Below, in pieces: positions 49,851 through 57,107 of a DNA stretch of 64,000 bases. The first letter of the stretch is position 1. Each line of letters opens with the position of its first letter. The notes beneath the pieces are model-generated. The model saw nothing but the letters and a program-made list of their open reading frames with translations. It was not told the DNA's origin and did not search any database. Position numbers and translations under genes: made by a program. The DNA comes from Epinephelus fuscoguttatus (Eukaryota > Chordata > Actinopteri > Perciformes > Serranidae): contig NC_064761.1 of the NCBI RefSeq assembly GCF_011397635.1, positions 36,482,143-36,546,142 on the forward strand. The letters run 5' to 3'.

Positions 49851-52800
49851 TTAGAAGAGGCTCTCGACGTCGCCCATTTCTACGACCACAGTCTTCAGCT
49901 GGGAGTAGTACTCGATTGTCACCTGGCCGTTCTCTCTGCCAAAGCCTGATAAAGCACAGTAGAGATTGTGTTAACACCCTTCTCACCTGATTCAGTTAAG
50001 ATAATTTAGGTCACTCACTGCAATAAAGTGTAATACTATGAATGTACTTCCTTTGCATATACGATGACAAAAATGGTGATTCTGACCATTTTTTAAACCC
50101 TACCTGAGTTCTTATATCCTCCAAATGGCACCATCACAGAGCCGGTGTTGTAGTTGTTGATGAAGCAGGTCCCTGCCTCCAGGTTCTCAGCCACACGATG
50201 GGCTCGAGAGATGTCCCTGCAGGCAGAGGAGAGGAACAGACTTCAGATTTTAAGCACAGCAATATGCAGCCTCATCTGCCCCCGACCACAGAGACTACTT
50301 TTGCGCAATAGTTTCCACGTGGCAGATTTTTTCATTGGCTGCGGTTCAGGGTTTTGCAAAAGCAGCCGTCAAAAAAACTGCCAAATGGAATGCAATAAGT
50401 ACTGTGTGAACTGGATATAGAGAAACATGATTGCGTAAAAAGGCTGGCAGCTATCATCAGAAAACCTAACTAATGTTACACAGCAAGCTGGTGTTGTCGT
50501 CCAAACAATCAATATGATATTGTATTGTCTTCTGCTGACCTGGTGAAAACTCCAGAGGCCAATCCAAAGGTGGTGTCATTGGCCCTCTTGATCACTTCCT
50601 CCTCTGTGTCGAAAGGCAGCACGGACATGACTGGGCCAAAGATCTCCTCCTTCACACAGGTCATGTCATCTCTGCAGTTATCTGTGTCAGGAAAAAACAA
50701 TGGATGTCACTCAGCTCTCAGGACTTTTGTAGCCTCCAACTGAATCTCTGTGGTTTGGAGTTCTCTCCTGCGTCCTGTTTGTACTCTCAGATATCTGCTT
50801 TATTTTACGGTTTCACGTTCGCTTTCAGCCGTGAAGGAGTCATGTTAAGTTACTGCTGATGATGCTGCTTCACAATAAAAGCTTTTAAATAACAAAATAA
50901 GGGTGGACTTTTATTGTAAGACAAGCCGTCATCAGTCAAAGACACTGTCTAGCAGGTAGCCCAGTTGTAATGGAACCGCAAATCCCTGCCATGCTGCGCT
51001 GACGTGCCGAGACCAAACCAAGATAGCACCAGTGTGGAAAAATGATACAGCATGTCAGATTCTTCTCATCAGTCCTTTTAAGTGCTTGGTAATGAAACAC
51101 AGCTGGAATGGGTAGAAATGAGTGTGTTACAAGAAATCAAAACATCCTGGAGAATCCATAGAGAGACTTACCAAGTACGCAGGGTGACATGAAGTAGCCT
51201 CCTTTCAATTTGGGGTCACTGGGGACAAAGGGCTCTCCTCCACAAAGCACTTTAGCTCCCTGGAAAAAAACAGACATATGAGTCAAATAATTATGAGAAT
51301 GAAGGTAGGAGTAATTAAACTTCACATAACTGCTGAGGTGCAGTGAGAGTGTCAGTGGTGCTATCACAGCTGATTTATTCTCAGATAAATGCCTCTCCAC
51401 AGCTGCTCAATTCTTCCACAGGGATCATTAAATGTTCCTCTGATCTAATGATCGGAGGATTATAAACACACCTGTTGCTTGGCCTGGTTGACGTATCCCA
51501 GCACTTTCTCCAGCTGTGGCTTGCTGATCAGCGCTCCCATTCGGGTGCCGTCCAACAGGGGGTCACCCACAGGGATGGCCTTAGTCCTCTTTACTACTTC
51601 TTCCAGGAACTTGGGCATGATCTCTCTCTGCACAAACACTCTGGTCCCATTGCAGCAAACCTGTACAATGCAGAATGTCGAATGTATCGGCTCAGGACGG
51701 GCTTGACATCATACAACACAAGGCATATATGATACAACTGCCTCACCTGTCCCTGCGTCAGGAAGTTTGCCATGAGTGCTCCTTTCACTGCATTTCCCAG
51801 TTCACAGTCTTTGAAGATCAGGAGAGGAGATTTCCCTCCGAGCTCCAGAGTCACCTGCTTCACACCCTTTGCAGACATTTCCATGACCTGAGGGTGGGGA
51901 GAACACACGGGGTATTAACAAGAGGGAAAATTAGCGCCTTGTCACGTTCCTCAGGCCATTCCTGAACAGTTTCTGTGGTGTGACATGGTGCATTGTCCTG
52001 CTGGGGGGCATTGCTATCAGGGAGTGCTGTTGCCATGAGGGGGCGATTTGGTCTGCAACAGTGTTTGGTTGGGTGGAGCGTGTCAAGTGGCATCCACATG
52101 AATGCCGGGACCAAAGGTTCACCAGCAGAACAATGCATTGTAACAAGATGATCAATGTTATTCACTTAACCTGGCAGTGGTTTTAATGTTTTGACTGATC
52201 GGCGTTCAGCCACACTGGGTGCAAATAGCATTGTTGGCTACACATACGTGGGTGCTCAAAGCATCTTGCAAAATAATTCGTATATCCACCCTGCGAATGG
52301 GATCTGCTCCAAAATCGAATGGGTTCTTTCTGAGCCCATGCCACCACCGAGTTTCATGAAAATCAGGACAGTAATTTTTGTGTTATCCTGCTGACAGACA
52401 AACAAACTTTACCAAAACATAACCTCATGGGCAGACGTAAAAATGATTGCACTGTCTCGGTCTCCGTACCTTCTTGCCTGTTGGCACACTGCCAGTGAAA
52501 GAGACTTTGGCGACCTTTGGGTGATGGCAGAGCAAGGTGCCAGTTTCTGCTCCACCTTGAACCACACAGAAGAGTCCGTCTGGTACCCCTGCCTCTTTGT
52601 AAATCTCAGCCAGAATGACGGCAGTCACAGGAGTCATTGGAGAGGGCTTAAATACCATGGCGTTGCCTAAACAACCAGATTTAAACATGGTTATGGTGTG
52701 ATTATTTTTAAGGGACAAGAGAGACACATTACTGCTGCACCATAATTATCTCAAGTCTTATAATAATTTGGTAATACACACTGTTACACACTCACCACAT

Positions 52801-55800: not shown

Positions 55801-57107
55801 AATCCTCCCACTACATTGACAATTGTAAGACAAATCTTAAAATGTACATGTTTTTAATTGCCTTTAGTTGTCTGCAGTGATTTTAATATTTTATTTTATT
55901 TTATTTTAATATTTTATTCTATTATCTTCTTAATGTTTGTAATTGTTCTTACCAGTTTTATTCTGTTTTATATTTGTGTACATTTTATATTGCCATATAT
56001 TTGTGTGCCATTCTTTTATTTTGTACAGCACTTTGGGCAGCTACCATTGTTTTTAAATTAAGTTTAAGTTTATTTACTTTAATTAATCCCCCGGAGGGGA
56101 AATTAAATGTGCTATATAAATAAACTTGATCTCCATCTCTGGCAAATTTGGTAAGTGCTGTTTGTCTTATCTCCAAGGCCATGGGTATAAGAGCAAGAGG
56201 GTCAAAGTTCAGGGTGTAATGTTATGAGACAGTAGTATGTCTTGATTGTGTGCATACTGCATACAACAGTACATACTTTTTAAGGGCAGCTGTAATACCT
56301 ACTGTATCTAGGGGGATGACCTTTTTTCACTTGAGCACATGGGTGCAGATCTTATGACAAGTTTGGGGGGGGACACAATCAGTTGTGATTTTTTTATTTA
56401 ATTGCACGCGTGCAAATCATGCCCACAGAGCGCTTGAGATTGCCAGCATATTTCACGATTTCATAGAGGCTCATCACCATCACCAAGTCATTCAAAAAGC
56501 ACTCCAAAGAGAATCATATGCTTACCTTTACTGTTTATTTCTCCTAAACAGCCAGTAGTACATGGAACCAGCCATCACCCTCCTTTTCACTGCTTTGCTG
56601 TTAGTTAATGCTACTTCTAGTTTCAGGGTCTCAGGCATGTTATGTCCACTCACGTTCTCATCTCTTGCCTCTCACGGATTCCCATTTCTCCTCATCATCT
56701 TCCCTTTCTCCCAGTATATAGGACTACTGTATACATTTGTTCAATTTCAATCATTTAAGCTATTTAGAATTGGGGGGGGCAATTTGTGTTTTTCAGAATT
56801 TGGGGGGGGACATGTCCCACCTGTCCCCCCCGGGATCTGCACCCATGCTTGACCACCTGTCCCACAAACTGTCTGTGTATGGCACTGGTCTCCACCAAAG
56901 CTGAAATGAAACCTACGCCCTTCTCTGATTACACAATGAACCAGTCTGCAGTGTGCTGTATTTACCAGTCGCAGGTTCAAACACGGGCTCTGCGTTTTTC
57001 TCCTGCCGGGGCTTCACTCGTTTCCCACCCCAGAAATTCAGAGGCTCTGTGACCACCGCGGTTCCTGTGCTGGCTCCGGGCATGGTGTCGAGGATTGACT
57101 GGGCCAT
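49851..57107 (-). CDS. aldh9a1: aldh9a1 copy 2, diverged aldehyde dehydrogenase paralog
   Basis: Eleven coding exons with the same lengths and phases as copy 1: 56966-57107, 54088-54233, 53038-53167, 52796-52930, 52470-52666, 51747-51887, 51472-51660, 51172-51259, 50540-50681, 50104-50216, 49851-49945. 1518 nt, 505 residues, no stop or frameshift seen. The nucleophile Cys299, general base Glu265, the LELGGKSP block and the [10 protein letters not shown] block are kept. It differs from copy 1 at V119G, I123C, W125A, Q172A, T175A, W176S, I461T, S462G, P463S and E465M, grouped in three short segments. By alignment to ALDH2 these include channel positions 120, 124, 173, 177 and the 457-460 loop. 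Substrate range is therefore likely changed; carnitine-pathway activity should not be assumed. It shares large stretches of intron with copy 1. Confidence 0.9.
51925..52200 (-). mobile_element. DNA transposon fragment in copy 2 intron 5
   Basis: The minus strand reads [20 protein letters not shown], resembling the second-Asp region of Tc1/mariner transposases (QDNAPCH). The rest of the enzyme is absent. It separates copy 2 exons 5 and 6 and is missing from the matching intron of copy 1, so it inserted after duplication or was lost from copy 1. Confidence 0.6.
52201..52420. repeat. Dispersed fish repeat next to the transposon fragment
   Basis: GAGTTTCATGAAAATCAGGA and TCCTGCTGACAGACAAACAA are a frequent motif pair at the ends of a fish dispersed repeat. 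No coding sequence. Confidence 0.4.
54560..54910 (+). pseudogene. Reverse transcriptase fragment in copy 2 intron 1
   Basis: The plus strand encodes [14 protein letters not shown], then after a frameshift near 54640 a VDDTVLF-like catalytic block (was Y/F-A-D-D), then [20 protein letters not shown]. This is the palm region of a non-LTR reverse transcriptase. It is frameshifted and truncated. Confidence 0.75.
55700..56130 (+). pseudogene. LINE carboxy-terminal fragment and 3' tail
   Basis: [20 protein letters not shown] is the conserved P-LWN-LP-type end of L2/Rex1 proteins. The tail has CAGCACTTTGGGCAGCT and ends with GTGCTATATAAATAAACTTG. It may belong to the same original insertion as 54560-54910. 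Confidence 0.7.
56338..56847. mobile_element. 510-bp hAT-like MITE with G-rich ends
   Basis: Ends CATGGGTGCAGATC and GATCTGCACCCATG are perfect 14-bp inverted repeats. Flanks CTTGAGCA (56330-56337) and CTTGACCA (56848-56855) match 7 of 8. Runs of 7-9 G lie near the left end and on the right half, with a C run opposite. It sits in copy 2 intron 1, close to exon 1. Confidence 0.8.

Follow-up and report, generated by a model that had tools for sequence, protein, structure and literature searches.

In the pathway that leads to carnitine, enzymes of the ALDH9 family oxidise trimethylaminobutyraldehyde; they also act on aminoaldehydes and on betaine aldehyde. Here we describe a tandem pair of aldh9a1a genes of the fish Epinephelus fuscoguttatus. 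The pair lies on the minus strand of a 64,000-nucleotide window (contig NC_064761.1, positions 36,482,143 to 36,546,142), which is the whole stretch of DNA that was analysed and whose own numbering is used below. Copy 1 (46438..40136) and copy 2 (57107..49851) specify proteins that are 96% identical (485/505 residues), and 10/20 of the replacements between them sit in codons 119-125, 172-176 and 461-465. An earlier reading, made from the letters alone, had proposed that copy 2 lost bulky residues of its substrate channel and kept its catalytic residues. Our results support an altered substrate specificity of copy 2. On balance we favour the view that this copy is a working ALDH9A1 tandem paralogue with a new function, one that would have exchanged the trimethylammonium aldehyde for a different substrate.

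Tandem duplicates of aldh9a1a have already received names in the teleost literature. PMC10811472 lists aldh9a1a.1, aldh9a1a.2 and aldh9a1b for zebrafish, and a gene under the name aldh9a1a.2 turns up in expression work on zebrafish (PMC9084189, PMC10801195) and on sea bass (PMC13342237); the relevant passages make no mention of channel divergence. The zebrafish set is like that of the present genome, with two aldh9a1a genes and a separate aldh9a1b, the likeness to the zebrafish and sea bass duplicates being one of gene names only and not of compared sequences. Among the matches listed in the open-licence literature, no title or abstract opening reported channel divergence between aldh9a1a duplicates.

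The closest solved relative is the betaine-aldehyde dehydrogenase (BADH) of cod liver (PDB 1a4s/1bpw, GmALDH9A2). Like copy 2, it departs at position 172, where it has Met; unlike copy 2, it keeps W125, W176, S462, P463 and E465, and Thr follows its catalytic Cys. Human ALDH9A1 shares with copy 2 the same catalytic residues and the linker position, but its channel is canonical and it prefers trimethylaminobutyraldehyde, although it also accepts aliphatic and aromatic aldehydes including hexanal, benzaldehyde and 3,4-dihydroxyphenylacetaldehyde (DOPAL) (PMC6487263). In the plant ALDH10 enzymes, one pocket-side residue can set specificity (position 441 of the spinach enzyme; PMC4046141). These enzymes resemble copy 2 in having Ala at the W125 position, but they belong to a different family and keep the Trp that matches W176. 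For the interplay of gene conversion and adaptive selection, the vertebrate NAT paralogues offer a precedent in which the selected sites lie near the active site (PMC3601968); they differ from the present case in that the enzyme family is unrelated and many species were studied, as against one genome here.

The best PDB match for copy 2 was cod BADH 1a4s (945 bits), followed by human ALDH9A1 (834 bits). Cod BADH was 82.6% identical to copy 2 and 84.4% to copy 1, and the corresponding values for human ALDH9A1 (PDB 6qak) were 73.3% and 74.3%. Both copies exceeded the cut-off of the betaine-aldehyde dehydrogenase model NF009725 (672.8 bits for copy 2 and 691.8 for copy 1; cut-off 593), and both fell under that of the BADH model TIGR01804 (598.8 and 612.8; cut-off 668.6). 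The catalytic C299, the general-base E265 and the oxyanion-site N168 are present in both copies (C299 and E265 correspond to C302 and E268 of ALDH2), which agrees with the earlier statement on the catalytic residues. Tyr169, Phe468, Leu293 and Asp120 of the channel are also intact in copy 2. The channel Trp and the linker Pro and Glu (W176, P463 and E465) are kept in copy 1, cod, human and aldh9a1b and are replaced by S176, S463 and M465 in copy 2. Judged from these residues, the loss lowers the case for copy 2 as a trimethylaminobutyraldehyde dehydrogenase, not the case for its ALDH9 descent.

Replacements in the substrate channel of copy 2

Exon-by-exon rebuilding gave each copy 11 exons, introns that all begin with GT and end with AG, and a coding sequence of 1518 nt for 505 amino acids. 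The start, stop, open reading frame (ORF) and splice sites are undamaged in both. The copies differ at 39/505 codons, 20 by replacement and 19 silently, with 45 nt different in total. All ten replacements that had been listed from the letters were recovered, in the exons named for them: V119G, I123C and W125A in exon 3 (53038..53167; codons 119-125 at 53081..53101), Q172A, T175A and W176S in exon 4 (52796..52930; codons 172-176 at 52821..52835), and I461T, S462G, P463S and E465M in exon 10 (50104..50216; codons 461-465 at 50132..50146). Their mapping to ALDH2 was also correct, positions 119, 123, 125, 172 and 176 matching V120, M124, L126, L173 and W177, positions 461-463 matching V458-G460, and 465 matching Q462. 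Codons 461-465 correspond to human V450-S451-P452-V453-E454, at the start of the inter-domain linker, which spans 449-470 in human ALDH9A1 (PMC6487263).

Several of these codons had been said to need more than one base change. This was so for V119G, I123C, Q172A (CAG>GCG) and E465M, with two changes each, and for W125A (TGG>GCT), with three; the other 34 of the 39 differing codons have a single base change each, and all five multi-base codons are inside the three segments. The replacements of the first two segments had been described as mostly large-to-small; over all three segments the side chain shrinks in nine of the ten (sum -578 cubic angstroms), and one negative charge is lost from the channel of copy 2. 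Replaced residues cluster along the protein: 12/20 are within 4 codons of another (218/20000 random placements), and 4 fall inside 7 codons (315/20000). Differences are likewise bunched in the block of exons 4-5, with four of ten within 14 nt (191/20000), and in exons 10-11, with five of seven within 13 nt (15/20000). Replacement divergence (dN) and silent divergence (dS) were 0.50 and 0.27 in the segments and 0.009 and 0.055 in the rest of the coding sequence. Exon 3 is the most diverged exon (13/130 nt; dS 0.225, dN 0.077), and exon 10 has six replacement differences and one silent. Of all exons, exon 4 shows the strongest constraint in comparison with aldh9a1b (pN 0.030), yet its differences between the copies (4/135 nt) comprise four replacements and no silent change.

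The three segments had been picked by inspection in the earlier reading, so only tests on positions derived from papers are independent of that choice. Lists of channel residues were compiled from PMC11362210 (ALDH10) and PMC10650273 (ALDH2 tunnel and entrance). The changed positions numbered 5/14 in the first ALDH10 list (p 9.2e-5), 5/13 in the first ALDH2 list (p 6.1e-5) and 5/19 in their union (p 4.7e-4). The lists were then widened by ALDH10 Glu260 and Phe395 and by ALDH2 Lys338 and Glu340, taken from the same papers, which gave 5/16 (p 1.9e-4), 5/14 alignable positions of 15 (p 9.2e-5) and 5/22 (p 9.9e-4), respectively. In the widened count, ALDH2 Leu119 falls in an alignment gap, and two residues are shifted by one position relative to the first count. 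The five changed positions were identical in every count (119, 123, 172, 176 and 462); since the same five are in both lists, the ALDH10 and ALDH2 enrichments are one result.

The residues were further compared with a bacterial set. A pattern search gave 441 matches, of which 408 were confirmed as relatives; the best 80 of these were used, and tblastn supplied their reading frames. The search peptides span positions 125, 281 and 454-461 and exclude 172, 176 and 462-465, so the bacterial counts at the latter were not forced by the search. W176, Q172 and P463 were each found in 80/80 of these relatives and E465 in 75/80. Position 125 was Ala in 75 and position 462 was Thr or Ala in 73. The residues of copy 2 at 119, 123, 172, 176, 461, 462, 463 and 465 occurred in 0/80, and Ala175 in 4/80. 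None of the 80 had a residue other than Trp at 176, hence they give no hint of a substrate. W125, W176, S462, P463 and E465 are kept by both human and cod ALDH9, cod having Met172 and Ala175 and human Val461. Outside ALDH9, the Trp matching W176 is kept in spinach BADH, pea AMADH2 and ALDH2, but P463 and E465 are not. The aldh9a1b protein of this genome keeps Q172, W176, I461, P463 and E465 and has Arg125, Ala175 and Thr462.

By comparison with aldh9a1b, copy 2 is derived at 172, 176, 461, 463 and 465, and by comparison with cod and human it is derived at 125 and 462. Gly119 and Cys123 are absent from copy 1, cod, human, aldh9a1b and the 80 bacteria, and this absence is the sole basis for their polarity. 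T175A is probably a change of copy 1, because cod and aldh9a1b also have Ala175. The proposal that copy 2 lost ancestral residues thus holds for most positions; the polarity of T175A is probably reversed, and W125 is free to vary. Two stricter forms of the proposal were rejected, namely that all ten changes are losses of copy 2 (by T175A) and that W125 is an invariant residue (by Ala in the bacteria and Arg in aldh9a1b). Apart from Ala175, the residues of copy 2 were not found in cod BADH or aldh9a1b, two proteins that make a thin sample of other fish.

These comparisons bear on the possibility that copy 2 kept the ancestral substrates and that its replacements offset each other or adjust affinity, rate or a linker movement of the human ALDH9A1 type. 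The retained Y169, F468, L293 and D120 fit with this, and positions 119, 123, 125 and 172 are not constant across the compared ALDH9 proteins (copy 1, cod, human and aldh9a1b). A tuning of the linker would also suit positions 463-465, which match human P452-E454, residues that in the apo structure take the place of the substrate (PMC6487263). However, W176 and P463 are unvarying in the 80 bacteria, human, cod and aldh9a1b, and we regard the retention of the ancestral substrates as unlikely, if still worth keeping in view.

Changes were next assigned to branches over codons 49-505, with aldh9a1b as the outgroup and the segments comprising 17 codons. Within the segments, ten replacements fell on the copy 2 branch, two on the copy 1 branch and four on neither with certainty, and the single silent change was likewise not assigned. 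The remaining codons had four, three and two replacements and six, four and eight silent changes in the same three classes. On the copy 2 branch, the replacement to silent ratio was 10:0 in the segments versus 4:6 in the rest (Fisher p 0.005). Regardless of branch it was 16:1 versus 10:18 (p 9e-5; p 0.003 with pathway-averaged counts). These p-values are optimistic, the segments having been picked after looking. The contrast bears on relaxed constraint, by which copy 1 would carry the function and copy 2 would be held in frame mainly through repeated conversion. Copy 2 did lose residues that are invariant in 80/80 bacterial relatives, and conversion would hide decay. But relaxed constraint predicts scatter, and the polarised copy 2 changes are concentrated as given above; in addition, the catalytic residues and all splice sites of copy 2 are undamaged. 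We consider this explanation improbable.

Patchy identity between the copies

Blocks of 90-99% identity cover the exons and some introns, and exons 4-8 with introns 4, 6 and 7 are 97-99% identical between the copies. In one near-identical block (98.6%), in which 42112..42871 of copy 1 pairs with 51162-51922 of copy 2, 4/342 non-coding and 6/418 coding positions differ. The greater part of introns 1, 2, 3 and 8, as well as of intron 5 in copy 2, lies outside the blocks. The introns near the segments had been described as almost unchanged; this was true of introns 4, 6 and 7 but not of the surroundings of exon 3, whose flanks are largely unalignable, or of exon 10, intron 10 being ~88% identical. 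One block edge is sharp, with 19 differences in 42977-43020 versus 10 in 43021-43518.

Silent divergence is also uneven, with 15/91 sites in exons 2, 3 and 9 versus 6/262 elsewhere (p 8e-6), or 13 and 6 when silent codons only are counted (p 7e-5). Between copy 1 and aldh9a1b, the same split of exons gave silent divergences of 0.666 and 0.640, so local rate does not explain the unevenness. The dS of exons 1, 4-8, 10 and 11 is 0-0.05; exons 4 (dS 0) and 10 (dS 0.04) are among these low values, yet have four and six replacement differences. Exon 3 appears to have escaped recent homogenisation, and exons 4 and 10 would be either homogenised or slow-changing. The near-identity of the copies is best read as partial gene conversion between older duplicates and not as a young duplication, conversion being deduced from mosaic identity in one genome. 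Since dS to aldh9a1b is ~1.5, far larger than the 0.07 between the copies, the tandem duplication or the last homogenisation is younger than the split of aldh9a1a and aldh9a1b. The islands of replacements may either have been kept through conversion by selection or have arisen after conversion, and one genome fits both.

A recent duplication followed by very fast positive selection on the channel, without gene conversion, could account for the low dS of most exons. Recent copies would, however, be uniformly similar, and the uniform similarity was rejected by the patchy identity and the strongly uneven silent divergence. Outside the near-identical blocks, moreover, homology is only 75%, and the block edge is sharp; downstream of copy 1, 39766..39941 differs from its partner (49067-49242) at 42/171 aligned positions. 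We therefore hold a recent duplication to be very improbable. Some ALDH-derived lens crystallins have a structural, non-catalytic role, and the altered channel residues would suit such a co-option of copy 2, but C299, E265 and N168 are all kept and we find the idea barely credible.

Gene models and surrounding sequence

The other exons of copy 2 show the same alternation of similar and diverged parts. Exon 1 (56966..57107), delimited by its ORF and a GT donor and with the start codon at 57107, differs from copy 1 at 1/142 nt, and exon 2 (54088..54233) at 6/146 nt (dS 0.18). Exons 5-7 with introns 5-6 occupy 51472..52666, the exons being 98.6-99.0% identical to copy 1, with E265 in exon 6 and C299 in exon 7. 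Exons 8 and 9 with intron 8 occupy 50540..51259 (exon 9 dS 0.145), and exon 11 (49851..49945), which includes the stop codon, differs at 0/95 nt. Copy 1 (40136..46438) has the canonical channel, as judged from the exon rebuild and the residue alignment. Intron 5 (51863-52397) is 380 bp longer in copy 2 than in copy 1, and part of the intron difference is an insertion. By eye, a stretch of copy 2's intron 5 resembles part of a Tc1-type transposase (QQDNAPCHT); no Pfam family matched there. A Pfam DDE_3 match to another element was found at 35343-35891.

Upstream of the start codon of copy 2, a putative non-coding first exon (57285..57340) ends at a GTAAGG donor; its start is nominal, and its exon status comes from the donor only. 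Its partner in copy 1 ends near 46654. The regions of the putative first exons (46654-46720 in copy 1 and 57285-57400 in copy 2) are 77% alike over 48 bp, unlike the coding blocks, and the promoters of the two copies may differ. A short upstream ORF, out of frame with the main start, was seen by eye in copy 1's putative first exon.

On one side of the pair is a Med8-like gene, with open stretches at 34066-34356 (above the Pfam cut-off) and 32780-33064 (below the cut-off), and on the other side is a TMCO1-like gene at 60759-61085. A reverse-transcriptase-like open stretch (37383-38417; RVT_1, 8e-15) lies ~1.7 kb downstream of copy 1. Degenerate tandem repeats of 25/36/61 bases, with TATGACTTTTTTCGACATACTATAC-like units, occupy 3.6 kb at 11215-14859, and tandem repeats of ~141 bp (AAGGTCACAGTGGCCTTGACC...) occupy 59072-59670. 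Text similar to the latter was noted by eye at 41300-41780 (copy 1 intron 8) and 47680-48790 (between the copies), and a dispersed family of ~141-bp repeat units may have contributed to the intron differences. An Rfam scan of the window gave no matches.

The aldh9a1b gene is located elsewhere in the genome (C15:24812200-24821900; 909-8551 in that stretch), with 11 exons in the model and GT/AG introns. A genome search with copy 1 gave 61 matches; beyond the two copies and aldh9a1b, the best candidates, which were scored, shared <=58% identity per exon and probably belong to other ALDH families. The aldh9a1b protein has an N-terminal extension, MLPRLAASLQRPTAAPLATAIRC, with a net charge of +3 and no acidic residue; the starts of copies 1 and 2 differ from it. 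The extension looks like a mitochondrial presequence. In human, mitochondrial and cytosolic forms of ALDH9A1 come from one gene (PMC13219423), and the fish aldh9a1a and aldh9a1b genes may have divided these locations between them.

Substrate and function of copy 2

Given the kept residues, copy 2 is predicted to fold as an ALDH and to carry out NAD-dependent oxidation through Cys299, Glu265 and Asn168. Nine replacements would have rebuilt its channel: three at the mouth (119, 123 and 125), two in the middle wall (172 and 176) and four in the substrate-facing loop of the linker (461-463 and 465). Loss of Trp176 and Glu465 would weaken the hold on trimethylammonium and amino-aldehydes, and the wider, less charged channel might suit some bulkier or non-cationic aldehyde; it could favour the side activities of ALDH9A1 towards aliphatic and aromatic aldehydes. 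Copy 1 and aldh9a1b, which retain the ancestral channel at 172, 176, 463 and 465, would presumably do the carnitine and polyamine work. Gene conversion would have overwritten much of the pair and left the specificity residues as short islands, which, most simply, would persist because selection removes conversions that cross them.

The sequence-only reading had it that the Trp matching W176 is part of the aromatic box that holds the trimethylammonium group. Plant ALDH10 Trp170, which matches W176, is indeed described as crucial, together with Tyr163, to anchor the substrate chain (PMC11362210), but in spinach BADH the pocket for the trimethylammonium group is attributed to a Tyr and a Trp that match Y169 and F468 (PMC4046141), both kept by copy 2. 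On the role of this Trp, the sequence-only reading was partly right.

That pocket assignment is one of several points that weigh against a changed substrate. With Y169 and F468 kept, some trimethylammonium binding or activity may remain in copy 2. Cod BADH, which has Met172, is reported to use betaine aldehyde more efficiently than the other five substrates compared (PMC6487263), so a change at 172 alone need not shift the preference. Position 125 varies freely, as shown by the bacteria and aldh9a1b, and T175A probably belongs to copy 1. Only two other fish ALDH9 proteins entered the comparison, the contrast for the copy 2 branch is drawn from 20 polarised changes, and the channel lists were compiled from paper passages, docking and simulation papers among them. 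Relaxed constraint masked by conversion, although improbable, would yield a similar loss of residues. Conversion itself was deduced from mosaic identity, and residual homology exceeded that of 20 shuffles in 6/8 stretches and flanks outside the blocks (barely so in intron 1, introns 3 and 5 being the two that did not), with the highest identities 75% downstream (171 bp) and 77% upstream (48 bp).

With these points taken into account, we still favour a functional copy 2 with a new substrate. A further step can be offered tentatively, as a possibility that falls somewhat short of an even chance: copy 2 may represent a new substrate class of vertebrate ALDH9, with a wide, less charged channel that lacks a Trp invariant in all relatives compared, and conversion may have spared its specificity codons and so marked the residues that define its function. 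With 96% identity and a divergent channel, the two copies come near to a ready-made mutagenesis experiment, and a substrate difference between them would be assignable largely to about nine residues. If the proposal is true, the pair would be a compact vertebrate case of selection holding functional differences against gene conversion.

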